A stretch of 32,270 nt of DNA from Oscillospiraceae bacterium (GTDB lineage Bacteria; Bacillota; Clostridia; Oscillospirales; Oscillospiraceae), in NCBI GenBank assembly GCA_017466215.1, contig JAFTUO010000072.1:1-32270 (forward strand). Direction: 5' to 3'. The notes under the pieces were generated by a model, which had not been told where the DNA came from, did not search any database, and saw only the letters and a program-made list of their open reading frames with translations. A program made the translations under genes and the position numbers. This document shows, piece after piece, positions 4,721 to 31,357 of this stretch (its first letter is position 1; each line of letters opens with the position of its first letter).

Positions 4721-4812
4721 GCAATGCACATAAATTTCAGGGCCAAAAGGTGGTTTGCACTTGGAAAATGCTACAGTTTTTTGATATTTTGCTTAAAAAT
4801 GCAAGTTTCCTC

Positions 4813-4841
4813 TTGTAAATTCTGCTGATTTGGCGTATACT
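4813..4841 (+). promoter_or_regulatory. Promoter of asnS
   Basis: TTGTAA (4813-4818), 17-base spacer, TATACT (4836-4841). The start codon follows at 4877, leaving a leader of about 30 bases, too short for a T-box. Confidence 0.75.
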
Positions 4842-4876
4842 TTAGCTATATTTTCAAGTGGCAGGAGGAATTGATT

Positions 4877-6268
<1,392 letters not shown>

Positions 6269-6280
6269 TAAAAAAATGGA

Positions 6281-6311
6281 AAATGCTCCGTCGTTTGACG
6301 GAGCATTTTTT
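6281..6311 (+). terminator. Terminator of asnS
   Basis: Stem 6281-6292 with 6297-6308 (GCTCCGTC/GACGGAGC core, loop GTTT) followed by a T run. It begins 12 bases after the asnS stop. Confidence 0.9.
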
Positions 6312-6375
6312 ACTGATTTTTTCACATATAATAAAAAGCGTTTTGCACACCCTAATTTTTGAGGGAGGGATCGCT

Positions 6376-14039: not shown

Positions 14040-14068
14040 TTGACTTTCCGCTTGAAAGATGGTATAGT
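14040..14068 (+). promoter_or_regulatory. Promoter of the T-box-controlled aryl acid operon
   Basis: TTGACT (14040-14045), 17-base spacer, TATAGT (14063-14068). Transcription would start near 14075, about 13 bases before the T-box stem I, giving a leader of about 300 bases to the first start codon. Confidence 0.85.
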
Positions 14069-14085
14069 TATCAATATTGTAAAAC

Positions 14086-14338
14086 GCGATGACGAAACCC
14101 AGTAAGCGCTACTGTTCCTCTTGCAGAGAGCTGCCGTTTGGTGCAAGGCAGCAGGGGAAAAGCGCCGAATTCCTTTCTGAGCGGCTCTGCTGAACATTTT
14201 AGTAGGCGGAGACGGGTGCGCCCGATACTGCGCTTACGGTCTGTTGGGATCGGATAAGGCCGCGGAAGCCGCGGTAAATTGAGGTGGTACCACGGGGTAA
14301 ACTCGTCCTCTGCTGGAAAGCAGAGGACTTTTTTGTTT
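14086..14338 (+). promoter_or_regulatory. T-box leader, specifier UUC (Phe), with terminator
   Basis: A tRNA-sensing transcription antitermination leader. Stem I begins with the GATGAC kink-turn element (14088-14093) and AGTA (14101-14104) of the specifier loop. The distal AGAGAGCTGCC...GGCAGC arm is at 14124-14152. On the return strand AGCGC CGAA precedes TTC at 14170-14172, the codon-like specifier. The T-box TGGTACCACG is at 14285-14294. The terminator is a perfect 10-bp stem GTCCTCTGCT/AGCAGAGGAC (14305-14314 with 14319-14328) and a T run. UUC is codon for Phe. The bulge reads UGGU, pairing with a tRNA ending A-CCA, as tRNA-Phe does. A one-base shift would read UCC (Ser), but bacterial tRNA-Ser ends G-CCA and would need UGGC. 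Uncharged tRNA-Phe should let transcription through. Confidence 0.92.
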
Positions 14339-14371
14339 TACCCCATATTACGTTTGAAAGGGCATAGAATT

Positions 14372-16009
14372 ATGGTCATTACGGATTATTTGGAACGCAA
14401 TGCCAGACTGATCGGCGCAAAAACCGCGCTGGTAGAGGTCAACCCCTCCGAGGAACGGGACAATGCCGTTACCTGGCGGGACTTTAATCTGATCGAAAAT
14501 GCAAACCCCGATGCACCCTACCGCCGGGAAATGAGCTGGCAGGATTTTGACCGCCGGGCTAACCGATTTGCAAACCTGCTGCTGAGCCGCGGCCTGCAAA
14601 GGGGCACAAAGGTCGCCATTTTGCTGATGAACTGCTTGGAGTGGCTGCCCATTTATTTCGGCGTGCTCAAGGCAGGCTGCATCGCCGTGCCGATGAATTT
14701 CCGCTATTCTTCTGATGAGATCAAGTATTGTCTGGACTTAGCAGATGCGGAGGTGCTGGTGTTCGGCCCGGAATTTGTCAGCCGGATGGATGCCATCGAA
14801 GCCGATCTGGACTTTTTGAAGATGATGTTCTTCGTGGGTAAGAACGGCCCGGAATACACGGAAGACTGCCTGCGGTTGATGGATTTCTGCTCCTCCAAGG
14901 CACCTCCCGTATTGCTGACAGAAGATGACCACGCGGCCATCTATTTCTCCTCCGGCACTACCGGCTTCCCTAAGGCGATCCTGCACGATCACAGATCCCT
15001 GACCTGCGCTTGTATGGTAGAGCAAAACCACCACGGCCAGACCGCCGACGATGTGTTCCTGTGCATCCCGCCGCTGTATCATACCGGCGCAAAAATGCAC
15101 TGGTTTGGCTCACTCCTTTCCGGCAGCAAGGCAGTTCTGCTTCGGGGCGTGAAGCCTGAGTGGATTCTGCGGGCTGTGACGGAAGAAAAATGCACCATCG
15201 TTTGGCTGCTGGTGCCCTGGGCCCAGGATCTTTTGGATGCTGTGGATTCCGGCCGCATCAACCTGGGCGACTATTACTTAGATCAGTGGCGACTGATGCA
15301 TATCGGCGCGCAGCCTGTTCCCCCCAGTCTGATCCGCCGCTGGATGGAAAAATTCCCCCACCATCAGTATGACACCAACTATGGCCTTTCCGAGTCTATC
15401 GGCCCGGGCTGCGTGCATCTGGGCGTGGAGAATACCCACAAGGTGGGCGCCATCGGCAAGCCCGGTTATCTGTGGGAGACTAAGATTATCGACGAACACG
15501 GGGCGGAGGTTGCACAGGGTGAGGTCGGCGAACTGGCCGTCAAGGGCCCCGGCGTGATGCTGTGCTACTACAAGAATCCGGAGGCGACCGATGAGGTGCT
15601 GAAGGGCGATTGGCTCTGGACCGGCGATATGGCCCGTATGGACGAAGATGGATTTATCTACCTGGTTGACCGCAAGAAGGACGTGGTCATTTCCGGTGGT
15701 GAGAACCTCTATCCCGTCCAGATCGAAGATTTCCTCCGGGGCTTCGACAAGATCAAGGATGTGGCCGTCATTGGCCTGCCGGATGCCCGTCTGGGTGAGA
15801 TTGCCGCGGCCATCGTGGAGATCAAGGAGGGCGTAACCTGCACCGAGGAGGAGATCAATGCCTTCTGCATGGGCATGCCCCGGTATAAGCGTCCCAAGCA
15901 GATCATCTTCGACAAAATCCCCAGAAATCCCACCGGCAAGATCGAAAAGCCGGCTCTGCGTGAAAAATACTGCAAGGGCCGCCTGGTGGAAAGCCAGATC
16001 ACCGGTTAA
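14372..16009 (+). CDS. AMP-forming acyl-CoA (probable aryl acid) ligase
   Basis: A 545-residue adenylate-forming ligase: carboxylate + ATP + CoA to acyl-CoA + AMP + PPi. Core motifs: phosphate loop YFSSGTTGFPKAILH (191-205), YGLSES (337-342), TGD (417-419), the hinge region DRKKDVVISGGENLYP (433-448) and the C-terminal catalytic Lys in PRNPTGKIEK (K523). All key residues are present. The chain length of the substrate cannot be read, but as first gene behind a Phe T-box and in one unit with iorAB an aryl acid is the natural candidate. ATG 14372 is chosen because AAAGGG (14357-14362) is nine bases upstream and the family N-terminus begins there; upstream codons in frame lie in the terminator hairpin. 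The gene is controlled by the T-box leader. Confidence 0.88.
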   Translation: MVITDYLERNARLIGAKTALVEVNPSEERDNAVTWRDFNLIENANPDAPYRREMSWQDFDRRANRFANLLLSRGLQRGTKVAILLMNCLEWLPIYFGVLKAGCIAVPMNFRYSSDEIKYCLDLADAEVLVFGPEFVSRMDAIEADLDFLKMMFFVGKNGPEYTEDCLRLMDFCSSKAPPVLLTEDDHAAIYFSSGTTGFPKAILHDHRSLTCACMVEQNHHGQTADDVFLCIPPLYHTGAKMHWFGSLLSGSKAVLLRGVKPEWILRAVTEEKCTIVWLLVPWAQDLLDAVDSGRINLGDYYLDQWRLMHIGAQPVPPSLIRRWMEKFPHHQYDTNYGLSESIGPGCVHLGVENTHKVGAIGKPGYLWETKIIDEHGAEVAQGEVGELAVKGPGVMLCYYKNPEATDEVLKGDWLWTGDMARMDEDGFIYLVDRKKDVVISGGENLYPVQIEDFLRGFDKIKDVAVIGLPDARLGEIAAAIVEIKEGVTCTEEEINAFCMGMPRYKRPKQIIFDKIPRNPTGKIEKPALREKYCKGRLVESQITG

Positions 16010-16033
16010 TAAACAGAAAGCTTGTGATTTTTT

Positions 16034-17596
16034 ATGGATCTATTGATTAAGCTTCCGATGGTCATCCTGTTCTTTGCCGTTATGATCGCCATCGGAATTT
16101 ACTGCAAAAAGCACTCCACCAATGTGGACGACTTTGTGCTGGGTGGACGCAGCGTCGGCCCGTGGCTGACTGCCTTTGCCTACGGCACATCCTATTTTTC
16201 CGCGGTGGTGTTTGTGGGCTACGCTGGCCAGTTCGGCTGGAAGTACGGCATCGCCGCCACCTGGGCAGGTATCGGCAATGCTATCATCGGCTCGCTGATG
16301 GCTTGGGCGATCCTGGGTCGCCGCACCCGGATTATGACCCAGCACTTAAACAGCGCGACGATGCCCCAGTTCTTTGAAAAGCGGTTTGCCAGCCCCGGCC
16401 TGAAGCTGGCGGCGTCTGCCATTATCTTCATCTTTTTGATCCCCTACACCGCATCCCTTTACAACGGCCTGAGCCGGCTGTTCGGTATGGCGTTCAACAT
16501 CGACTATTCTGTTTGCGTCATTGTGATGGCTGTCATCACCGCCATCTACGTCATTGCCGGCGGCTATATGGCAACGGCTATCAACGATTTTGTCCAGGGC
16601 ATCATTATGATCGTGGGCATCATCGCGGTGATCGCCGCGGTGCTGAAAGGGCAGGGCGGCTTTGCGGAAGCACTGACCCAACTGGGTCAGGTGTCCGATC
16701 CTGCGGTGTCCGACGTTCCCGGTGCATTCGTTTCTTTCCTGGGTCCTGACCCTGCCAACCTGCTGGGCGTGGTGGTCCTGACTTCTCTGGGTACTTGGGG
16801 TCTGCCCCAGATGGTCCAGAAGTTCTACGCCATCAAGAGCGAGAAAGCCATCAACAAGGGTATGATCATCTCCACGGTGTTCGCCCTGATCGTGGCCGGC
16901 GGCTGCTATTTCCTGGGCGGCTTTGGACGGCTGTTTGCTGACCGGGTGGATGTGGCGAAAGAAGGCTTCGATGCCATTATTCCCGCGATGCTCTCTGATC
17001 TTTCACCGTTCCTGATTTCGATTGTCGTTATTTTGGTGCTTTCCGCATCGATGTCTACGCTGTCATCGCTGGTGCTGACCTCCAGCTCCACGCTGACGCT
17101 GGACTTCATCAAGGGAAATGTGGTAAAGAAGATGGATGAAAAGCGTCAGCTTCTGTCCATCCGGGTGCTGATCGTGGTGTTTATCCTCATTTCCGTTGTG
17201 CTGGCGCTGATCCAGCACAAGTCCAATGTGACCTTTATCGCCCAGCTGATGGGCATTTCCTGGGGTGCGCTGGCAGGTGCATTCCTGGCTCCGTTCCTGT
17301 TCGGCCTGTACTGGAAGAAGACTACGAAGGCCGCCGTTTGGGCCAGCTTCCTGTTCTCTACGGTGGTTATGCTCTGCAATATTCTCTTCCCCCAGTATTT
17401 CCCGGCACTGTTGCGCACCCCCATCAATGCCGGCGTGTTCTGTATGCTGTTTGGACTGATTCTGGTTCCTGCGGTCAGCTTACTTACGAAAAAGCCCGAA
17501 AAGGCACATATCGAGCAGGTCTTTTCCTGCTATGACTGCACTGTAACCGTTTGCGTAACCGACTCCATTGGGGAGACAAAGGAGGAAACCCTATGA
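16034..17596 (+). CDS. Sodium:solute symporter (SSS family), likely organic acid uptake
   Basis: A 520-residue membrane protein of the SSS/PutP superfamily with about 13 hydrophobic helices. Family marks include DDFVLGGRSVGPWLTAFAYG near residues 32-51, the TM helix with SYFSAVVFVGYAGQ, and a C-terminal half with SASMSTLSSLVLTSSST, where the paired Ser/Thr residues correspond to the Na2 site region. It imports an organic solute with sodium; the operon suggests an aryl acid such as phenylacetate, but this is inference. The last 25 residues contain an odd Cys pair (CYDCTVTVCV) after the final helix. The start ATG 16034 has only a weak ribosome binding site. The stop overlaps the iorA start as ATGA, so translation is coupled. 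Confidence 0.9.
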   Translation: MDLLIKLPMVILFFAVMIAIGIYCKKHSTNVDDFVLGGRSVGPWLTAFAYGTSYFSAVVFVGYAGQFGWKYGIAATWAGIGNAIIGSLMAWAILGRRTRIMTQHLNSATMPQFFEKRFASPGLKLAASAIIFIFLIPYTASLYNGLSRLFGMAFNIDYSVCVIVMAVITAIYVIAGGYMATAINDFVQGIIMIVGIIAVIAAVLKGQGGFAEALTQLGQVSDPAVSDVPGAFVSFLGPDPANLLGVVVLTSLGTWGLPQMVQKFYAIKSEKAINKGMIISTVFALIVAGGCYFLGGFGRLFADRVDVAKEGFDAIIPAMLSDLSPFLISIVVILVLSASMSTLSSLVLTSSSTLTLDFIKGNVVKKMDEKRQLLSIRVLIVVFILISVVLALIQHKSNVTFIAQLMGISWGALAGAFLAPFLFGLYWKKTTKAAVWASFLFSTVVMLCNILFPQYFPALLRTPINAGVFCMLFGLILVPAVSLLTKKPEKAHIEQVFSCYDCTVTVCVTDSIGETKEETL

Positions 17597-19329
17597 AAAC
17601 ACTGATGCTTGGCAACGAAGCCGTTGCCAGAGGCCTTTACGAGGCCGGCTGCAGCTTTGTGTCCAGCTATCCCGGCACGCCCAGTACCGAGATCACTGAG
17701 TGCGTAGCCAAATATAAAGAAGTCTATGCCGAGTGGGCGCCCAATGAAAAGGTGGCGATGGAGGCTGCCTTTGGCGCAAGCCTTGCCGGCAAGCGCAGCT
17801 TCTGCGCCATGAAGCACGTGGGCCTGAACGTGGCGGCGGATCCGCTGTTTACCGTGGGCTACACTGGCGTGAATGCAGGCTTTGTCATCGGCGTGGCGGA
17901 TGATGCAGGTATGCATTCTTCCCAGAATGAGCAGGATTCCCGCCATTATGCCCGGGCATCCAAGATCCCTATGCTGGAGCCGGCGGATTCGAAAGAGGCC
18001 CTGGCCTTTACCAAGCTGGCCTATGAGTTGTCTGAGCAGTTCGATACCCCCGTTTTTATCAAGATGTGTACCCGGGTTTCCCACTCTCAGAGCATCGTAG
18101 AGCCCGGCGACCGCATTGAGGTCAGCAAGCCCTACGAAAAGAATCCCCAGAAGTACATTATGATGCCCGGAAACGCCAAGCGCCGCCACCCCATCGTGGA
18201 AGAGCGTACCAATGCATTGGTGCAGTGGGCGGAAACGGCTGAGATCAACCGTGTTGAAGATGGCACTGACCGTAAGATCGGCATTATCACCTCTTCTACT
18301 TCCTATCAGTACGTGAAAGAGGTTTGCGGCGATCGTTACAGCGTGCTGAAGCTGGGTATGATCTGGCCGATGCCCAAGCAGAAGATCATTGATTTTGCCA
18401 AGACGGTGGAAAAATTGGTGGTTGTGGAAGAGCTGGACAGCTTCATCGAGACCCATTGCCGTCAGCTGGGCCTTGACTGCGTTGGCAAGGAAATCTTCTC
18501 CTGCATCGACGAATTCTCCCAGAATCTGGTCGCTGAAAAGCTGGGTGTTTCCACCCAGTCCGGCACCAAGCTGGATGCCGCCATCCCTCCCAGACCCCCC
18601 GTTATGTGCGCCGGCTGTCCCCACAGAGGCCTGTTCTACACCCTGGCGAAGAACAAGGTTACCGCTCTGGGCGATATCGGCTGCTATACCCTGGGCGCTG
18701 TGCCGCCTCTGGCCGCGCTGGATACCACCATCTGTATGGGCGCTTCCGTCTCCGGTATGCACGGCTTTACCAAGGCCGGCGGCGCGGAGGGAAGAAAAGT
18801 TGTGGCGGTCATCGGCGACTCCACCTTTATGCACTCCGGTGTTACAGGCCTGATCAATATGGCCTACAATGAATCCTGCGGAACGGTCATCATCGTGGAT
18901 AACTCCATCACCGGTATGACCGGCCATCAGCAGAATCCCACCACCGGCTTCAACCTGAAGGGCGATCCCTGCACCAAGATAGACCTGGAGACCCTGTGCC
19001 GCGCGGTTGGCATCAACCGTGTCCGGGTGGTCGATCCCTACGATCTGGCCGCTTGCGATGCCGCCATCAAGGAGGAAACCGCGGTGGATGAGCCCTCTGT
19101 GATCATCTCCCGCCGTCCCTGCGCGCTGCTGAAATATGTCAAGCACAAGAAGCCCATCATTGCCAATGCCGACAAGTGCGTTGGCTGCAAGGCTTGTATG
19201 AAGATCGGCTGTCCTGCTATCAGCATTGTGGATAAAAAGGCCCGTATCGACAACACCCTCTGCACCGGCTGCGGTGTTTGCGCACAGCTGTGTAAGTTCG
19301 ATGCACTGACGGCAGCAAAGGAGGACTGA
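17593..19329 (+). CDS. iorA: Indolepyruvate:ferredoxin oxidoreductase, alpha subunit
   Basis: A 578-residue catalytic subunit of the oxygen-sensitive enzyme that interconverts aryl-pyruvate + CoA + oxidised ferredoxin with aryl-acetyl-CoA + CO2 + reduced ferredoxin. N-terminal pyrimidine-binding domain: SYPGTPSTEI (25-34) and NEKVAMEAAFGAS (51-63). TPP pyrophosphate domain: CAGCPHRGLF, GDIGCYTLG and GDSTFMHSGVTG. The C-terminus carries two [4Fe-4S] motifs: C529, C532, C535, C540 (CX2CX2CX4C, the altered spacing usual for IorA) and C557, C560, C563, C567. ATG 17593 has AAAGGAGG (17578-17585) seven bases upstream and overlaps the symporter stop. Cytoplasmic, working with IorB. The reaction is reversible; the T-box and AMP-forming ligases argue for the reductive carboxylation direction here. 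Confidence 0.95.
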   Translation: MKTLMLGNEAVARGLYEAGCSFVSSYPGTPSTEITECVAKYKEVYAEWAPNEKVAMEAAFGASLAGKRSFCAMKHVGLNVAADPLFTVGYTGVNAGFVIGVADDAGMHSSQNEQDSRHYARASKIPMLEPADSKEALAFTKLAYELSEQFDTPVFIKMCTRVSHSQSIVEPGDRIEVSKPYEKNPQKYIMMPGNAKRRHPIVEERTNALVQWAETAEINRVEDGTDRKIGIITSSTSYQYVKEVCGDRYSVLKLGMIWPMPKQKIIDFAKTVEKLVVVEELDSFIETHCRQLGLDCVGKEIFSCIDEFSQNLVAEKLGVSTQSGTKLDAAIPPRPPVMCAGCPHRGLFYTLAKNKVTALGDIGCYTLGAVPPLAALDTTICMGASVSGMHGFTKAGGAEGRKVVAVIGDSTFMHSGVTGLINMAYNESCGTVIIVDNSITGMTGHQQNPTTGFNLKGDPCTKIDLETLCRAVGINRVRVVDPYDLAACDAAIKEETAVDEPSVIISRRPCALLKYVKHKKPIIANADKCVGCKACMKIGCPAISIVDKKARIDNTLCTGCGVCAQLCKFDALTAAKED

Positions 19330-19331
19330 GT

Positions 19332-19904
19332 ATGAAGACAAAGAATATTATGATTGTCGGCGTCGGCGGTCAGGGAAGTCTGCTGGCCTCCAAGCTTCTG
19401 GGACGTATGCTGCTGCAGAAGGGCTATGACATCAAGGTGTCCGAGGTCCACGGTATGAGCCAGCGCGGCGGCAGCGTGGTTACCTATGTTCGCTTTGGCG
19501 ACAAGGTCTATTCTCCCGTTATTGACAAGGGCGAGGCTGACTTTATCGTCTCCTTTGAGCTGCTGGAGGCTGCCCGCTGGACGGAGTACTTAAAGCCCGG
19601 TGGAAAGATCGTGGTCAATACCCAGGAGATCAGCCCGATGCCCGTGATCACCGGCGCTGCCGAGTATCCCCAGGGACTGGTGGAGCAGATGAAAGCTGCC
19701 GGCCTGGACGTGGATGCCATCGACGCTCTGGCGTTGGCCCAGCAGGCAGGTTCTGCCAAGGCTGTTAACATCATTCTGATGGGCCATCTGTCCCGCAGCT
19801 TCGACTTTGCTGAAGAAGACTGGATGGAAGCCATCGAAAATTGCGTTCCTGCAAAATTCTTAGAGCTTAACAAAACTGCGTTCAAATTGGGCCGCAGCAT
19901 CTGA
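19332..19904 (+). CDS. iorB: Indolepyruvate:ferredoxin oxidoreductase, beta subunit
   Basis: A 190-residue gamma-type domain subunit of 2-oxoacid:ferredoxin oxidoreductases, which completes the IorAB heterodimer and contributes to CoA binding. The GVGGQGSLLASKLLG block (10-24) and the EVHGMSQRGGSV block (about 38-49) are the family hallmarks. Length matches IorB (about 190-200). It begins two bases after the iorA stop, with AAAGGAGG placed across the end of iorA, so the two subunits are made together. The name is for the indolepyruvate family; phenylpyruvate and hydroxyphenylpyruvate are also normal substrates. Confidence 0.95.
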   Translation: MKTKNIMIVGVGGQGSLLASKLLGRMLLQKGYDIKVSEVHGMSQRGGSVVTYVRFGDKVYSPVIDKGEADFIVSFELLEAARWTEYLKPGGKIVVNTQEISPMPVITGAAEYPQGLVEQMKAAGLDVDAIDALALAQQAGSAKAVNIILMGHLSRSFDFAEEDWMEAIENCVPAKFLELNKTAFKLGRSI

Positions 19905-19925
19905 ACAGAAAAGAGGAAAATCAAA

Positions 19926-21224
19926 ATGGGAAATTATTTTCAGCCGGAAATCGAAACTGCCTCCAGAGAACAGATCCTGGCCTGGCAGAATGAGCGCCTG
20001 GTCAAGCAGGTGCAGCACGTATGGGACAATGTTCCCTACTACCGCAAGAAGATGGAAGAAAAGGGTCTGACCCCCGCTGACATTCAGGGTGTTGACGACC
20101 TGAAGAAGCTTCCTTTCCTGACCAAGGATGACCTGCGGGAAGCCTATCCCTACGGCCTGCTGGGCAAGCCCCTGTCTGATTGCGTCCGCATCCAGTCCAC
20201 CTCCGGCACTACCGGCAAGCGCGTTGTTGCATTCTACACCCAGCACGATATTGATCTGTGGGAAGATTGCTGCGCCCGCGCTATCGTCGCCGCCGGCGGC
20301 ACCAAGGATGATGTGTGCCACGTTTCCTATGGCTACGGCCTGTTTACCGGCGGCCCTGGCCTGAACGGCGGCTCTCACAAGGTGGGCTGCCTGACCCTGC
20401 CGGTTTCCTCCGGCAACACCGAGCGGCAGCTGCAGTTTATGACCGATCTGGGCTCTACCATTTTGTGCTGCACCCCGTCCTACGCCGCATATCTGGCTGA
20501 AAGTATTCACGAGCGTGGCCTGCGGGATCAGATCAAGCTGAAGGCCGGTATTTTCGGCGCAGAGGCCTGGAGTGAAAAGATGCGTGAGGATATCCAGAAC
20601 AGTCTGGGCATCAAAGCCTACGATATTTACGGTCTGACGGAGACCTCCGGTCCGGGCGTCAGCTTCGAATGCGAGGAGCAGACCGGTATGCATATCAACG
20701 AGGACCACTTCATCGCTGAGATCATCGACCCCGAAACCGGCGAGGTCTTGCCGGAAGGCTCTAAGGGCGAGCTGGTCTTCACCGCTATCACCAAGGAAGC
20801 ATTTCCCCTGCTGCGCTACCGCACCCGCGACATCTGCGTGCTGACCAGAAAGCCTTGCTCCTGCGGCAGAACCCACGTGAAGATGTCCAAGCCGATGGGC
20901 CGCAGCGACGATATGCTGATCATCAAGGGCGTCAATGTGTTCCCGTCCCAGATCGAGCAGGTGCTTCTGGAGCAGGGCTATCCTGCCAACTACCAGATCG
21001 TTGTTGACCGTGTCAACCATTCCGACACCCTGGAGGTTATGGTGGAGATGACCCCGGAGAACTTCTCTGACTCTCTGGCCAAGGTCACCTCTATGGAAAA
21101 GAAGCTGGTGGATGCGCTGAAGGCGATGCTGGGCATCTACGCCAAGGTCCGCCTGGTCGCACCCAAGACCATTGCCCGTAGCGAGGGCAAGGCTGTCCGT
21201 ATCATTGACAAGCGTAAGATTTAA
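19926..21224 (+). CDS. paaK: Phenylacetate-CoA ligase
   Basis: A 432-residue PaaK-family AMP-forming ligase: phenylacetate (or a related aryl acid) + ATP + CoA to the aryl-acetyl-CoA. Motifs: STSGTTGK (91-98), YDIYGLTE (231-238), RYRTRD (296-301) followed by the Cys-rich PCSCGRTH (309-316) that is typical of the family, and GRSDDMLIIKGVNVFPSQIE (324-343). The C-terminal Lys lies in SEGKAVRIIDKRK. Length is typical of PaaK (about 430), shorter than the first ligase in the operon. A GAGGAAAA ribosome binding site precedes ATG 19926. Placement directly after iorAB and before an ACT gene is a common arrangement in anaerobes. It would supply the thioester that IorAB carboxylates. Confidence 0.94.
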   Translation: MGNYFQPEIETASREQILAWQNERLVKQVQHVWDNVPYYRKKMEEKGLTPADIQGVDDLKKLPFLTKDDLREAYPYGLLGKPLSDCVRIQSTSGTTGKRVVAFYTQHDIDLWEDCCARAIVAAGGTKDDVCHVSYGYGLFTGGPGLNGGSHKVGCLTLPVSSGNTERQLQFMTDLGSTILCCTPSYAAYLAESIHERGLRDQIKLKAGIFGAEAWSEKMREDIQNSLGIKAYDIYGLTETSGPGVSFECEEQTGMHINEDHFIAEIIDPETGEVLPEGSKGELVFTAITKEAFPLLRYRTRDICVLTRKPCSCGRTHVKMSKPMGRSDDMLIIKGVNVFPSQIEQVLLEQGYPANYQIVVDRVNHSDTLEVMVEMTPENFSDSLAKVTSMEKKLVDALKAMLGIYAKVRLVAPKTIARSEGKAVRIIDKRKI

Positions 21225-21236
21225 GGAGGGGACAAG

Positions 21237-21665
21237 ATGGTATATCAAATATCTGTTTTTCTGGAAAACCGCGCCGGCCAGTTTGCCGAGATCACCACGA
21301 CTCTGGCGGACAACGGCATTGATATGCGGGCGATCTCCGTGGCGGAGACCGCAGATTACGGCATTCTGCGCTTGATCGTGGACAATGCCGAGAAGGCCAC
21401 ATCCATTCTGATGCAGCACGGCTATCTGCTATCTATGACCCCCGTGCTGGTGGTTGCCGTTTCGGATGAGCCCGGCGGCATTGCTCCCGTGCTGGCTACG
21501 GTTGCGGAGGGCAATATTGACATTGAATATATGTACTCCCTGTTTACCCACGCCGAGGGTAAGGCATACATCGTTTTCCGCGTCAACGAGACGGAAAAGT
21601 TCGTTTCTCTGCTGGCAACCCACGGCATTACTCCCACCACTGCCGAAGAACTGGGCATCCACTAA
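21237..21665 (+). CDS. Tandem ACT-domain protein (amino acid sensor)
   Basis: A 142-residue protein made of two ACT domains (about 1-68 and 70-140), each beta-alpha-beta-beta-alpha-beta, beginning YQISVFLENRAGQFAEIT and, in the second copy, TPVLVVAVSDEPGGIAPVLA. The GQF and GGI turns at the start of each first helix are the ligand-binding positions in ACT domains. No enzyme domain is attached, so it is a regulatory protein binding an amino acid, plausibly an aromatic one given the operon, and could act on the neighbouring ligase or oxidoreductase. The protein partner is not known. AAGGAGGGG lies just before ATG 21237, and it starts 12 bases after paaK. Confidence 0.9.
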   Translation: MVYQISVFLENRAGQFAEITTTLADNGIDMRAISVAETADYGILRLIVDNAEKATSILMQHGYLLSMTPVLVVAVSDEPGGIAPVLATVAEGNIDIEYMYSLFTHAEGKAYIVFRVNETEKFVSLLATHGITPTTAEELGIH

Positions 21666-21686
21666 TCATTACCGAGGTACAAAGCT

Positions 21687-22856
21687 ATGCAAGAAATGAG
21701 CAGAAAAAATCAATACTTTACGGATTCCGTCATCCGGCGAATGACCCGCATTTCCTTGGATTGCGGTGCCATCAACCTGGCCCAGGGCTTCCCGGATTTT
21801 GATCCGCCCAAGGCAATGCTGGATCGCTTAAATGAGGTTAGCTATCTTGGCCCTCACCAGTACCCCATCACTATGGGCGCACCCAATTTCCGCCAGGCGC
21901 TGGCCAGAAAGTGCGGCCGGTTTATGGGCCGTGAGCTGAATCCTGACACCGATATGGTGGTTACCATCGGCTCTACCGAGGCAATGGTGGATACCATCTT
22001 CGCCCTGACCAACCCCGGCGATAAGATCGCAATGTTCTCTCCCTACTTTGAGAACTACCGCGCCCAGGCCATTATGGCCCAGTGCGAGCCGGTCTTTATC
22101 CCCCTGGTGCCGCCTACGTTCAACTTTGATCCCAATGTGCTGGAGGATGCCTTCAAGCAGGGCCTGAAAGCCATCCTGATCTGCAATCCCTCCAACCCCA
22201 GCGGCAAGGTCTTCACTTATGATGAGCTGAAGATGATCGCCGATCTGTGTATCAAGTATGACGTCTATGCCATTATGGACGAAGTGTATGAGCACATCGT
22301 CTACGAGGGCCACAAGCACATCTATATGAACAGCCTGCCCGGTATGTGGGAGCGCACGGTTTCTTGTTCTTCTCTGTCCAAGACCTATTCCATCACCGGC
22401 TGGCGCTTGGGCTACGCCATCGCACCCAAGCCCATTATGGACCGCATTAAGCAGTATCACGACTTTAACACCGTCGGCTGCGCATCTCCGCTGATGGAGG
22501 CGGCTGTGGTGGGCCTGGATATGCCCGACAGCTACTATGAAGAATTCGGCGCACACTATGCCCATATGAAGAAGCTGTTTACGGAGGGCCTGGATCGCAT
22601 CGGCATTCCCTATACCGATCCTCAGGGCGCATACTTCGTGCTGGCTGACATTTCTCCGTATATGAAGAAGGGTCAGACCGATGTGGAGTTCTGCGAAGAA
22701 ATGGCCCGCAAGGTGGGCGTTGGCGCAGTTCCCGGCACGTCCTTCTTCAGTGAAAAGGGCGTCAACAGCATTGTACGCTTGCACTTTGCGAAGCTGGATT
22801 CCACGCTGAATGAAGCGCTGGATCGGCTGTCTCACATTAAAGAAAAGATGCTCTGA
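21687..22856 (+). CDS. Class I/II PLP aminotransferase, probably aromatic
   Basis: A 389-residue fold-type I aminotransferase of the AspC/PatA-like group. Seen: LAQGFPDFDPP (31-41), NPSNPSGK (167-174), the Asp that contacts the pyridine nitrogen in MDEVYEH (D198), the Schiff-base Lys in SLSKTYSITGWRLGY (K232) and the C-terminal carboxylate-binding Arg in SIVRLHFAK. It would convert aryl-pyruvate plus an amino donor (glutamate or aspartate) to the aromatic amino acid, the last step of the pathway. The sequence alone does not prove aromatic specificity. ATG 21687 has GAGGT ten bases ahead; an in-frame ATG three codons on is an alternative. It is the last clear gene of the T-box operon; a repeat element follows. 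Confidence 0.9.
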   Translation: MQEMSRKNQYFTDSVIRRMTRISLDCGAINLAQGFPDFDPPKAMLDRLNEVSYLGPHQYPITMGAPNFRQALARKCGRFMGRELNPDTDMVVTIGSTEAMVDTIFALTNPGDKIAMFSPYFENYRAQAIMAQCEPVFIPLVPPTFNFDPNVLEDAFKQGLKAILICNPSNPSGKVFTYDELKMIADLCIKYDVYAIMDEVYEHIVYEGHKHIYMNSLPGMWERTVSCSSLSKTYSITGWRLGYAIAPKPIMDRIKQYHDFNTVGCASPLMEAAVVGLDMPDSYYEEFGAHYAHMKKLFTEGLDRIGIPYTDPQGAYFVLADISPYMKKGQTDVEFCEEMARKVGVGAVPGTSFFSEKGVNSIVRLHFAKLDSTLNEALDRLSHIKEKML

Positions 22857-22865
22857 TACTGACAA

Positions 22866-23071
22866 AAGCCCTGAGGGCGCAAGCCGAATGTCATTAAGTT
22901 AGTATGTCATTGCGAGGAGGGCGAAAGCCCGACGCGGCAATCTCCCGGTACATTCCCCACCACTGCATAGCACTTGCAGAGGTTGTGCCGGGAGATTCCC
23001 ACGGGCCTGACGGCCCTCGGAATGACAGCTTCTTTTAACTTGATGACTTTGGGCGCAAGCCTTCGGGGCTT
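22866..23071. repeat. Nested inverted-repeat element, copy 2 of the TGTCATT family
   Basis: The inner element 22905-23027 has ends TGTCATTGCGAGG and CCTCGGAATGACA and an internal pair GCAATCTCCCGG / CCGGGAGATT. It is framed by a second imperfect inverted pair, 22866-22900 with 23037-23071 (26 of 35 positions agree by my count). It occupies nearly all the gap between the aminotransferase and azlC. No gene and no other terminator are seen there, so the folded repeat may itself end or protect the operon message. Confidence 0.8.
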
Positions 23072-23094
23072 TCCTTCGAAACGAGATGTAAACG

Positions 23095-23802
23095 ATGAAA
23101 TCTAAGGAATTCTTTGCTGGCCTGAAGGCGGGTATGCCGGTGTGCGTCGGCTATTTTTCCGTCAGCTTTGGCTTTGGCGCAATGGCTATCGCCCAGGGCA
23201 TAACGGTCTGGCAGGCTATACTGATCTCTGCATCCAATCTGACCAGCGCAGGTCAGTTCGCGGGGCTGACGGTCATCGCGACAGGGGCGGCGATCATCGA
23301 GATGATCCTGACCCAGCTGGTGATCAACAGCCGGTACGCTTTAATGAGCCTTGCCCTGGGACAGCGCTTGGGCCCCAATGTAGGGGCCGGCAAACGGCTG
23401 ATCGCTGCGTTTTTCAATACAGATGAGGTTTTTGCTCTGGGTATGTCCAGGGGAAAACAGCTGACCACCGGCTTTTTCGTAGGCGTCGGCACAGTGGCGG
23501 CGCTGGGCTGGATATCCGGAACGGCTATGGGCGCAATCGCCGGCTCGCTGCTGCCGGAATCTGTGCGGATGGCCCTGGGCGTGATGCTCTACGGTATGTT
23601 TATCGCCATTGTTGTCCCCCAGGCGAGGGAGGAAAAGCCGATCCTAATATCGGTGATCCTGGCGCTGGTGCTTGGCTGTCTGTTTGCCTGGTGTCCTGGG
23701 TTGAATCAGATCTCTGACGGTCTGGCTATCGTGATCAGCACCGTTCTGGCGGCCTCTGCCTGCGCCGTGCTGTTCCCGGTGGAAGAGGAGGTGGCGCAGT
23801 GA
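23095..23802 (+). CDS. azlC: AzlC-family amino acid exporter, large subunit
   Basis: A 235-residue inner-membrane protein of the AzlC/YgaZ family, which with AzlD exports branched-chain amino acids or analogues. It begins FFAGLKAGMPVCVGYFSVSF and has SASNLTSAGQFAG, both family-typical, and about seven to eight hydrophobic helices. The length is standard. The start ATG 23095 has only a weak ribosome binding site (GAG about nine bases upstream). It overlaps azlD by four bases. No clear promoter is visible between the repeat and the gene, so it may be read from the T-box operon, which would link amino acid efflux to the aryl acid genes; this is uncertain. Confidence 0.92.
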   Translation: MKSKEFFAGLKAGMPVCVGYFSVSFGFGAMAIAQGITVWQAILISASNLTSAGQFAGLTVIATGAAIIEMILTQLVINSRYALMSLALGQRLGPNVGAGKRLIAAFFNTDEVFALGMSRGKQLTTGFFVGVGTVAALGWISGTAMGAIAGSLLPESVRMALGVMLYGMFIAIVVPQAREEKPILISVILALVLGCLFAWCPGLNQISDGLAIVISTVLAASACAVLFPVEEEVAQ

Positions 23803-24101
23803 AGATCTACCTCTACATTCTTGTGATGGCGGTTACCACCTATTTGATCCGGGCGTTACCGCTGACACTTTTCAAGAAACCCATCCAAAATCGGTTTTTG
23901 AAGTCGTTTTTGCACTATGTTCCCGCGGCTTGCCTGGCGGCGATGACCTTTCCTGCCATCCTTTCCGCTACGGAAAACTGGATCAGCGGCGCCATCGGTC
24001 TTGCAGTTGCGGTTTTGCTGGCATTATGCAAGAAGAGCCTGATCGTCGTGGCAGTTGCAAGCTGCGCAGCCGTATTTTTGACGGAATTTATTATCCATTA
24101 A
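23799..24101 (+). CDS. azlD: AzlD-family amino acid exporter, small subunit
   Basis: A 100-residue protein with four predicted helices, partner of AzlC. The sequence YLIRALPLTLFKKPIQNRF near the start and the YVPAACLAAMTFP block are typical of AzlD. It starts at GTG 23799, overlapping the azlC stop as GTGA, with GAGGAGG immediately upstream inside azlC. Followed by a good terminator. Confidence 0.92.
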   Translation: MKIYLYILVMAVTTYLIRALPLTLFKKPIQNRFLKSFLHYVPAACLAAMTFPAILSATENWISGAIGLAVAVLLALCKKSLIVVAVASCAAVFLTEFIIH

Positions 24102-29024: not shown

Positions 29025-29053
29025 TTGTAATTTAGGGAAAAAGGTGGTATGAT
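29025..29053 (+). promoter_or_regulatory. Promoter of serC-serA
   Basis: TTGTAA (29025-29030), 17-base spacer, TATGAT (29048-29053). About 60 bases separate it from the start codon, with no evident leader structure. Confidence 0.75.
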
Positions 29054-29112
29054 GTGTGGTATACATTTGTTTTCGTCCTACGGACAATTTTTATCTCTGG
29101 GAGGAATGAAAT

Positions 29113-30192
29113 ATGGCAAGAGTTTATAACTTTTCTGCCGGTCCGGCTGTGCTGCCGGAGGAGGTGCTGCAGCAGGCAGCAAATGAAATGCTCGACTACC
29201 GTGGAAGCGGTATGTCTGTGATGGAGATGAGTCATCGGTCTAAGACCTATCAGCAGATCCTCAGTACTGCCGAGGCGGATATTCGGGAGCTGATGAACAT
29301 TCCCGACAACTATAAGGTTCTGTTCCTGCAGGGCGGTGCGTACCAGCAGTTTGCCGCTGTGCCGATGAATTTGATGAAGAACCGGGTGGCGGATTATATT
29401 ATCACCGGCCAGTGGGCCAAGAAAGCCTGGCTGGAAGCCCAGATCTACGGCACAGCCAATGCAGTTGCATCCTCTGCCGACAAGGGCTTTTCCTACATCC
29501 CCGACTGCTCGGATCTTAACATCAGCGAAAACGCTGACTATGTGTACATCTGCGAAAATAACACCATTTACGGCACAAAATTCAAGACCCTGCCCAATAC
29601 CAAGGGCAAGCCCCTGGTTGCGGACGTTTCCTCCTGCTTCCTGTCTGAGCCGGTGGACGTTACCAAGTATGGTATGCTCTACGGCGGCGTGCAGAAGAAT
29701 ATCGGCCCTGCCGGCGTAGTGATCGCCATTATCCGGGAGGATCTGATCACCGAGGATGTGCTGCCCGGCACACCCACGATGCTGCGCTACAAGACCCACG
29801 CCGACAACGGCTCTCTGTTCAATACGCCGCCTGCCTACGGCATTTATATCTGCGGCCTGGTATTCCAGTGGCTGAAGAGTATCGGCGGCCTGAAGGCCAT
29901 CGAGGCCCGCAATCAGGAAAAGGCGGCTATTCTGTACGATTTCCTGGATAGCAGCGATATGTTCCGCGGTACTGTTGTAAAGCAGGATCGCTCCCTGATG
30001 AACGTTCCTTTTGTAACCGGCAATGCCGACCTGGACGCAGAATTCGTCAAGGCTGCGGAAACTGCAGGCTTTGTCAACCTGAAGGGACACCGCACTGTCG
30101 GCGGTATGCGCGCCAGCATCTACAATGCAATGCCCAAGGAGGGCGTTGAAAAACTGGTGGCCTTTATGAAAGACTTTGAAAGAAGGAAATAA
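29113..30192 (+). CDS. serC: Phosphoserine aminotransferase
   Basis: A 359-residue class V PLP aminotransferase converting 3-phosphohydroxypyruvate and glutamate to O-phosphoserine, the second step of serine synthesis. It begins VYNFSAGPAVLPEEVL, the SerC hallmark. GGAYQQFAAVPMNL is the substrate and phosphate loop, D171 in VADVSS faces the pyridine nitrogen and the Schiff-base Lys is K195 in YGGVQKNIGPAG. Length is standard. ATG 29113 has TGGGAGGAA seven bases upstream. It is followed two bases later by serA, so the two enzymes are co-expressed. No serB is present in the window. Confidence 0.96.
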   Translation: MARVYNFSAGPAVLPEEVLQQAANEMLDYRGSGMSVMEMSHRSKTYQQILSTAEADIRELMNIPDNYKVLFLQGGAYQQFAAVPMNLMKNRVADYIITGQWAKKAWLEAQIYGTANAVASSADKGFSYIPDCSDLNISENADYVYICENNTIYGTKFKTLPNTKGKPLVADVSSCFLSEPVDVTKYGMLYGGVQKNIGPAGVVIAIIREDLITEDVLPGTPTMLRYKTHADNGSLFNTPPAYGIYICGLVFQWLKSIGGLKAIEARNQEKAAILYDFLDSSDMFRGTVVKQDRSLMNVPFVTGNADLDAEFVKAAETAGFVNLKGHRTVGGMRASIYNAMPKEGVEKLVAFMKDFERRK

Positions 30193-30193
30193 T

Positions 30194-31357
30194 ATGTATC
30201 CCATCCATTACTTAAATTCCATTTCGCCCAAGGGCACGACGCTGTTTACCGAGGATTATACGCAAGCGGCCAATGCCGACGAAGCCAAGGCAATCCTGGT
30301 GCGCAGCGCTTCGATGCACGATATGGAGTTTTCGCCGAATCTTCGTGCCATCGCCCGTGCCGGTGCAGGCGTGAACAATATTCCCCTGGATCGCTGTGCA
30401 GAGAATGGTATCGTGGTGTTCAACACTCCCGGCGCCAACGCCAACGGCGTAATGGAGTTGGCGCTGTGCGGTATGCTGCTGGGCAGCCGGGATATCGTGG
30501 CGGGCATCAACTGGGTGCAGTCCATTAAGACTACCTCTGATATCGCCAAGCAGGTGGAAAAGGGCAAATCCAAGTTCGCCGGTACAGAGATCGCCCACAA
30601 GAAGCTGGGCGTTATCGGTCTGGGTGCCATCGGCGGCCCGCTGGCCAACGCTGCCCGGAAGCTGGGTATGGATGTCTATGGCTGCGACCCCTACATCTCC
30701 ATTGATGCCGCCTGGCATCTGGACAGCCACATCATCCGGGTCAAGACCCGGGAGGAGATCTACGCCAATTGCGACATTATCTCCGTCCACGTGCCGCTGC
30801 TGCCGGACACCAAGCATATGATCAACGCCGAGGCTCTGAGCCTGATGAAGGATGGCGTGATTCTCTTGAATTTCGCCCGGGATGCGCTGGTTGATGACGA
30901 TGCGCTGGAGCAGGCGCTGAAAACCGGCAAGGTCAAGCGCTACATCACCGACTTCCCCAACGACAAGACCGCCAATATGGCCGGCGTCGTGGCGATTCCT
31001 CACCTGGGCGCATCCACGGAGGAATCCGAGGATAACTGCGCCAAGATGGCCGTCAAGCAGGTGATGAACTACCTGGAAAACGGCAACATCATCAACTCCG
31101 TGAATTTCCCCACCATTGATATGGGCATCTGCACCAAGGCAAGCCGTATCCTGCTGCTGCACAGGAACATTCCCAATTCTCTGGGTCAGTTCACCTCGGT
31201 TGTTGCCCGGGATAACCTGAACATCTCGGATCTTCTGAACCGAAGCAAAGGAAGCTACGCCGTTACCATGCTGGATCTGGATACCCCCGCATCCCAGGCC
31301 GTTCTGGACGACCTGCGGAGCATCGAAGGCGTGCTGAGAGTTCGCTTGATTAAGTAA
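30194..31357 (+). CDS. serA: D-3-phosphoglycerate dehydrogenase with ACT domain, variant active site
   Basis: A 387-residue NAD-dependent 2-hydroxyacid dehydrogenase making 3-phosphohydroxypyruvate. Substrate domain 1-95 and about 290-310; NAD domain with GLGAIG (142-147) and the acidic D165 in GCDPY. Catalytic Arg is R229 in NFARDAL, catalytic His is H270 in IPHLGAST. The usual Glu of the DVFxxEP block is replaced: the region reads ITDFPND, with D257 at that place. A C-terminal ACT domain (about 315-387) should give feedback by serine. It is shorter than E. coli SerA at the N-terminus. ATG 30194 has AGAAGGA six bases upstream at the very end of serC. Function is supported by the serC partnership. 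Confidence 0.93.
   Translation: MYPIHYLNSISPKGTTLFTEDYTQAANADEAKAILVRSASMHDMEFSPNLRAIARAGAGVNNIPLDRCAENGIVVFNTPGANANGVMELALCGMLLGSRDIVAGINWVQSIKTTSDIAKQVEKGKSKFAGTEIAHKKLGVIGLGAIGGPLANAARKLGMDVYGCDPYISIDAAWHLDSHIIRVKTREEIYANCDIISVHVPLLPDTKHMINAEALSLMKDGVILLNFARDALVDDDALEQALKTGKVKRYITDFPNDKTANMAGVVAIPHLGASTEESEDNCAKMAVKQVMNYLENGNIINSVNFPTIDMGICTKASRILLLHRNIPNSLGQFTSVVARDNLNISDLLNRSKGSYAVTMLDLDTPASQAVLDDLRSIEGVLRVRLIK

Follow-up and report, generated by a model that had tools for sequence, protein, structure and literature searches.

We analyzed a 32,270-nucleotide stretch of DNA from an Oscillospiraceae bacterium (contig JAFTUO010000072.1 of assembly GCA_017466215.1, hereafter the window), in which a T-box leader RNA precedes seven genes that include iorA and iorB, the genes for an indolepyruvate/arylpyruvate:ferredoxin oxidoreductase (IOR). 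The best explanation of this arrangement, and in our judgment a likely one, is that the genes form a T-box-controlled salvage operon, induced by phenylalanine (Phe) starvation, that would convert an aryl acid, most likely phenylacetate, to Phe. The observations behind it are the leader itself, its specifier codon, the gene content of the operon and the conservation of the whole arrangement.

The leader (14080..14313, on the plus strand like all features of the operon) matches the Rfam T-box model RF00230 over its full length (1-219, cmscan; E 7.3e-30). It scores 133.9 bits, where the gathering score is 93, and is the top scorer among the 11 T-boxes of its own genome (1.56 Mb, 83% complete). 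A promoter-like sequence match of the sigma-70 type, TTGACT-17-TATAGT, precedes it at 14040..14068, and TTGAC-like sites precede many, not all, of the homologous T-boxes in the leader alignment. At the other end is an intrinsic terminator, GTCCTCTGC/GCAGAGGAC (14305..14328), in which 10 pairs are followed by a T tract; it shares sequence with the 3' half of the antiterminator and could compete with it. The whole leader folds better than shuffled sequences (z -2.78), and in its minimum-energy fold the terminator is formed but the canonical stem I is not complete; the isolated antiterminator folds no better than shuffles (z -0.73). For this leader we predict readthrough that probably depends on uncharged tRNA-Phe. 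An earlier reading of the sequence without database searches (the sequence-only reading) had described a promoter, a complete T-box leader and seven genes in one direction, and had expected a high-scoring match to the T-box model; the Rfam score, the promoter match and the Pfam and NCBIfam assignments given below agree with it on each point.

Which amino acid does the leader sense? The Rfam alignment and a stem I rule, by which the codon is the triplet that a single spacer base separates from the following 3' strand of lower stem I, place the specifier codon at 14170..14172, where it reads UUC (Phe). The specifier found is hence the one that the sequence-only reading had assumed, and not one for an unrelated amino acid. 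The frames shifted by one base upstream (AUU, Ile) or downstream (UCC, Ser) were rejected for three reasons. First, when applied to four further T-boxes in this genome, the stem I rule returns the codons to be expected from their targets, namely GTC at valS, TAC at tyrS, CTG at a LeuA-like gene and TGG at trpB; these control targets were named by eye from their proteins without a family search, and other T-boxes of the genome (L005-L008, L010 and L011, some of them printed on the wrong strand) were excluded as controls. Second, only UUC and UAC variants occur at this position across loci that are, like the window's, led by the first ligase gene (ligase-led loci). Third, the T-box bulge, UGGU (14285..14288), is complementary to the ACCA end of tRNA-Phe and so fits A73. 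In the window's genome both tRNA-Phe and tRNA-Tyr end in ACCA (A73), and tRNA-Trp ends in GCCA (G73). The bulge reads UGGU in all 27 UUC T-boxes where it is readable and in all 15 UAC T-boxes; one of the former, L162, lies on the opposite strand and was kept in this tally and left out of the locus-by-locus count of T-boxes. The six UGG T-boxes have three UGGC and three UGGU bulges, and the trpB T-box of the window's genome has UGGC. As far as base complementarity can tell, the match of bulge and discriminator is an independent sign that agrees with a Phe specifier.

The seven genes follow the leader at spacings between a 4-base overlap and a 24-base gap. The first (lig, 14372..16009) encodes an AMP-forming acyl-coenzyme A (CoA) ligase (PF00501, PF13193), proposed to be an arylacetate-CoA ligase; its top NCBIfam match, PRK06187, falls below its cut-off, none of the cut-offs shown was passed, and among solved structures only other acyl-CoA ligases matched. 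The second (sss, 16034..17596) encodes a sodium:solute symporter (SSS, PF00474), whose position in the operon suggests uptake of an aryl acid. The product of iorA (17593..19329), the alpha subunit of the IOR, scores 694 bits against TIGR03336, above the cut-off of 650.9. A set of cysteines, which we take to be the cluster cysteines, and a GDS...N motif, presumably the thiamine pyrophosphate (TPP) motif, are invariant in 13 aligned IorA sequences, the window's included; solved structures offered distant relatives only (best E 7.9e-13). The beta subunit, IorB (19332..19904, PF01558), passes NF005325 with 284.8 bits (cut-off 230) and is below the cut-off of a second beta-subunit model, TIGR03334 (185.5 against 205.8 bits). 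Next comes a second ligase gene, paaK (19926..21224). Its product misses the equivalog cut-off of TIGR02155 and its best matches among solved structures are phenylacetate-CoA ligases (2y27, 2y4o and 4r1l, E < 1e-117), and we therefore call it PaaK-type only. It is followed by act (21237..21665), encoding an ACT-domain pair protein (PF19571, ACT_8) proposed to be an amino-acid sensor, and by the gene of a class I/II aminotransferase (21687..22856, PF00155) that would carry out the last step, from phenylpyruvate to Phe. The aminotransferase gene follows act not just in the window but in five further loci, L042, L048, L049, L065 and L070, and also in L104 and L151. The operon encodes together a CoA ligase, an IOR and an aminotransferase, as an aryl-acid (reductive carboxylation) route needs; no kinase and no phosphotransacylase was found by Pfam among the seven genes.

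The iorA surroundings of 38 genomes of the same genus yielded 41 loci, the window included. A T-box is present upstream in 25 of the 27 ligase-led operons with upstream sequence, which is the conserved neighborhood that the sequence-only reading had anticipated. Contigs of six loci (L040, L042, L069, L074, L076 and L078) start inside the operon and leave the leader out of view; ligase-led L076 was too short to enter the 27. In L072, whose contig begins within the symporter gene, the T-box stands right before iorA. The 28 T-boxes in 26 genus loci comprise 24 with a UUC and four with a UAC (tyrosine, Tyr) specifier. Rfam supports the window's T-box, all 15 of the others that were rescanned and eight more by whole-genome scan; L056 and L057, detected by the profile only, have identical T-box sequences and are counted as two loci. 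L047 and L079 have two T-boxes each, one with UAC ahead of lig-sss and another with UUC, itself preceded by a TTGACA site, ahead of iorA. Given that whole genomes contain only 6-15 T-boxes (12 genomes scanned), the association of T-box and operon in this genus appears well in excess of chance. A chance or recent insertion of a T-box, unlinked to the ior genes, would account for the T-box-free genus loci L050, L059 and L061 and for the many relatives that lack one; it is at odds with 25 occurrences in 27 operons and with the repeated appearance of T-boxes, in five families, across the class sample described below, and we regard it as extremely improbable.

Several genus loci depart from the common arrangement. 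By inspection, L050 has what resembles repeat filler where the T-box would be expected, and its lig, sss, iorA and iorB are present. L061 has a close iorA (74% identity) with neither lig nor a T-box before it. At six genus loci the iorA is a distant one, with 48-51% identity in L045, L052, L062, L066 and L073 and 38% in L075; these loci gave no T-box match and are of a different type.

Outside the genus, T-boxes were sought by a profile search (cut-off 1e-5), which replaced regular-expression matches with two mismatches that were mostly not borne out. The profile was built mostly from this group and may miss divergent T-boxes, so that absences outside the genus are provisional; a rescan with Rfam of nine profile-negative ligase-led loci, seven of the 19 in the named set (L101, L102, L103, L108, L119, L127 and L136) and both of those in the class sample (L200 and L214), gave none above the gathering score. 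The class sample was made up of 80 iorA loci taken from across the class. Here a T-box was found at seven of nine ligase-led loci (L205, L220, L224, L233, L240, L255 and L259), all with UAC and all above the Rfam gathering score. By comparison, the 20 paaK-led loci had none (Fisher p 2e-5); nor had any of 39 other loci, and the two found among divergent iorA loci (37-39% identity) both read UGG. The class-sample T-boxes recur in five families. Within the same order (22 loci, two of them too short), T-boxes were present at one of three ligase-led loci (L089, UAC), at all three divergent iorA loci (UGG), at one of seven paaK-led loci (L087, UGG) and at none of seven others. In a named set of 80 named best relatives they were present at four of 23 ligase-led loci, L104, L107 and L151 with UAC and L154 with UUC, the L154 match being partial (profile 17-191) and from the profile only, yet counted; none of eight paaK-led loci and two of 44 others (L116 and L117, UUC) had one. 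In L104 (Candidatus Avoscillospira avistercoris) and L151 all seven genes lie under a Tyr leader. L116 and L117 come from two metagenome-assembled genomes, one labelled Oscillospiraceae; their Phe T-box lies about 500 bases before iorA, with a ligase of the first type on the opposite strand (the L117 T-box is above the Rfam threshold, that of L116 was not checked with Rfam). By the genus, class and named counts, then, a T-box is the usual state in the genus of the window and in some of the class, and many relatives lack it.

A tryptophan (Trp, UGG) T-box stands directly before iorA in L013, L081 and L237, with Rfam scores of 70-85 bits that are below gathering and E values of 3e-13 or better. 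In these Trp units (L013, L237/L268 and L081/L270) iorA is followed by iorB and a PaaK-like gene. The other three of the six UGG T-boxes are distant from iorA, by several kb in L085 and L087 (5 kb in L087) and by about 1.5 kb in L245, across unannotated stretches; they are counted among the six, and we make no claim that ior is under their control. In an IorA tree (FastTree, 151 rows; support is weak at 48 of the 148 inner branches), the UAC loci fall among and around the UUC loci, and five of the six UGG loci fall in a divergent clade. The specifier is by all appearances exchangeable, the same operon being keyed to Phe or to Tyr and some divergent IORs to Trp. The unit is therefore better described as a T-box-controlled aryl-acid salvage operon with an exchangeable specifier.

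The Tyr leaders bear on a possible refinement of the Phe salvage explanation, namely a dual role in which the first ligase and the symporter would handle 4-hydroxyphenylacetate, PaaK would handle phenylacetate, IorAB and the aminotransferase would be shared, and the specifier would follow whichever amino acid is limiting in the lineage. The window has both ligases, and the double leaders of L047 and L079, with Tyr on lig-sss and Phe on iorA, fit such a division of labor. So does the class sample, where all seven ligase-led T-boxes are Tyr-keyed and where four of the seven units (L262, L264, L265 and L266) have no paaK in the fetched downstream stretch. It is from these dual leaders and paaK-less Tyr units that we conjecture that the first ligase acts on 4-hydroxyphenylacetate and PaaK on phenylacetate. 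Pulling the other way, most operons of the genus have one Phe T-box over everything, and paaK (with act) is present in the remaining three class Tyr units (L261, L263 and L267). Moreover, the substrate ranges are only predicted, and the assayed arylacetate ligase of C. difficile is described as broad (PMC13285125). We hold the refinement tentatively, leaning slightly against it.

Under the Phe salvage explanation the operon would work as follows. When Phe is low, uncharged tRNA-Phe would base-pair with the leader at the UUC codon and at the UGGU bulge and stabilize the antiterminator, and polymerase would read through into the seven genes. The symporter would import an aryl acid, most likely phenylacetate from neighboring gut microbes, which the PaaK-type ligase, the first (AMP-forming) ligase or both would activate to the aryl-CoA. 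IorAB, acting in the reductive direction, would convert aryl-CoA, reduced ferredoxin and CO2 to phenylpyruvate, from which the aminotransferase would form Phe; the ACT pair would probably sense the amino acid. The Tyr (UAC) and Trp (UGG) versions would imply 4-hydroxyphenylacetate and indoleacetate as the matching substrates.

Central to this scheme is the direction of the IOR reaction. By established logic, a T-box that opens on uncharged tRNA suits a supply route and not a breakdown route. Because a Phe T-box opens on uncharged tRNA-Phe, supply of Phe would fit and its breakdown would not; and because Phe, Tyr and Trp specifiers are all found on operons with an IOR and an AMP-forming ligase, the reductive direction is the best reading. 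In the opposite, fermentative direction IorAB would oxidatively decarboxylate arylpyruvates to aryl-CoA, and the ligases would run in reverse, releasing aryl acids with a gain of ATP. There is precedent in that IOR is reversible and serves amino acid fermentation in Pyrococcus, and a Bacteroides IOR that adjoins an AMP-forming ligase is reported to take Phe to phenylacetate (PMC13285125). The same 2026 paper places kinases beside several (fermentative) arylpyruvate oxidoreductases of C. scatologenes and C. difficile (PMC13285125); the window's seven genes have neither kinase nor phosphotransacylase. A Phe, Tyr or Trp T-box would, furthermore, induce a fermentative operon just when its substrate is scarce, which is odd for a regulator of degradation, and matching specifiers of all three kinds sit on IOR operons. 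We consider the fermentative direction unlikely.

That said, a number of points weigh against salvage as proposed here. In some syntrophs, ligases of the AMP-forming kind are able to work in reverse. The PaaK-type ligase scores 499.5 bits against TIGR02155, for which the equivalog cut-off is 646.3. The T-box is missing from two ligase-led genus operons (L050 and L059) and from 19 of 23 ligase-led loci of the named set, two of three in the order and two of nine in the class sample, in which it also stands at only two of 11 divergent iorA loci. In C. difficile the arylpyruvate-type oxidoreductase Cd3c adjoins an arylacetate ligase, its physiological direction not being established in that study (PMC13285125). 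With Cd3c and the Bacteroides IOR both beside ligases, the type of ligase is in itself no proof of direction. Flux and substrates are inferred from the sequence. Finally, the window's own genome (G000) encodes chorismate synthase (aroC) and prephenate dehydratase, and ior is not enriched where aroC is lacking: among 149 genomes a strong iorA was present in 12 of 20 without aroC and in 65 of 129 others (p 0.48), presence being counted by hand with partial matches at contig ends included.

The shikimate genes mean that the operon is to be seen as a salvage or supplementary route in a host that is likely a prototroph; the idea that it replaces a lost shikimate pathway was considered and is not supported, aroC and prephenate dehydratase both being present. 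The sequence-only reading, which had proposed a salvage operon switched on by Phe starvation, finds support in its main lines (leader, Phe specifier and conservation). It needs amending in that Phe is not the sole key, Tyr taking its place in some relatives and Trp on some divergent IORs, and in that the route would be supplementary. Three genomes of one family, 97-98% complete (G135, G093 and G117, with loci L098, L099 and L100), have iorAB and no chorismate synthase match; the list of prephenate dehydratase matches shows none for G093 and does not include G117 and G135. These three are candidates for organisms in which aryl-acid salvage is the main source.

Inspection of the DNA around the operon gave some further observations. 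The aminotransferase gene is followed by azlC and azlD (23095-24101), as it is in L065, where the two proteins are 89 and 87% identical to those of the window; perhaps they form an amino-acid exporter tied to the operon. In the spacer between the aminotransferase gene and azlC (22857-23094) we noted by eye an inverted element resembling a repetitive extragenic palindrome, GTCATTGCGAGGAGGGCGAAAGCC ... GGAATGAC. Two minus-strand frames of 510 and 390 amino acids (4796-6325 and 29035-30204) have no Pfam match at 1e-5; they are overlapped by long plus-strand frames, which lay outside the Pfam search, and may be on the wrong strand.

The route itself has precedents. Porat et al. (2004) reportedly described an aryl-acid pathway in Methanococcus maripaludis. 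In Methanococcus aryl acids feed aromatic amino acid synthesis (PMC4162585); that is an archaeon, whereas here the genes form an operon with a transporter, two ligases, an ACT protein, an aminotransferase and a tRNA-sensing leader. Rumen cultures can make Phe from phenylacetate, the same conversion as proposed here, with genes and control not named in the part of the report that bears on it (PMC7356843). The closest likeness is the Bacteroides pair of an IOR and an AMP-forming arylacetate-CoA ligase, for which a biosynthetic role is suggested as a possibility in a published discussion; the sections concerned mention no T-box and leave the direction open (PMC13285125). As to control, the Phe, Tyr and Trp T-box regulons of Firmicutes have the same class of leader on amino-acid supply genes, and among the targets given in T-box surveys are tRNA ligases, genes of tyrosine biosynthesis and transporters (PMC2494555, PMC3766115). 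The word indolepyruvate occurs in the main text of neither survey, their supplements being outside the scope (PMC2494555, PMC3766115). We found no description of T-box control of an ior or aryl-acid operon in the open-licence literature, a scope that excludes two of the main T-box surveys, where prior mention is possible. With the route known in methanogens and suspected in Bacteroides, and its T-box control not found in print, what would be new is the control of the route by the leader: a known leader class on a known, rarely described route, in a combination that is probably new.

In which direction IOR works physiologically in gut anaerobes is not settled, and the answer matters for the question of which organisms produce phenylacetate, p-hydroxyphenylacetate and indoleacetate in the gut and which use them. 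A tRNA-sensing leader offers an independent genetic hint of both direction and product that can be read from the sequence of many species. It seems to us reasonably probable, if less so than the Phe salvage explanation for the window, that tRNA-sensing operons for aryl-acid salvage make up a family in gut Clostridia, that in this family the specifier (UUC, UAC or UGG) marks the product and the direction of the IOR, one-base swaps between UAC and UUC re-target the operon between Tyr and Phe, and the hosts are regulated consumers of phenylacetate, 4-hydroxyphenylacetate and indoleacetate. If so, the T-box regulon would extend to an alternative route to the aromatic amino acids, with one kind of operon under three keys, and metabolites usually discussed as microbial end products would be subject to regulated consumption.

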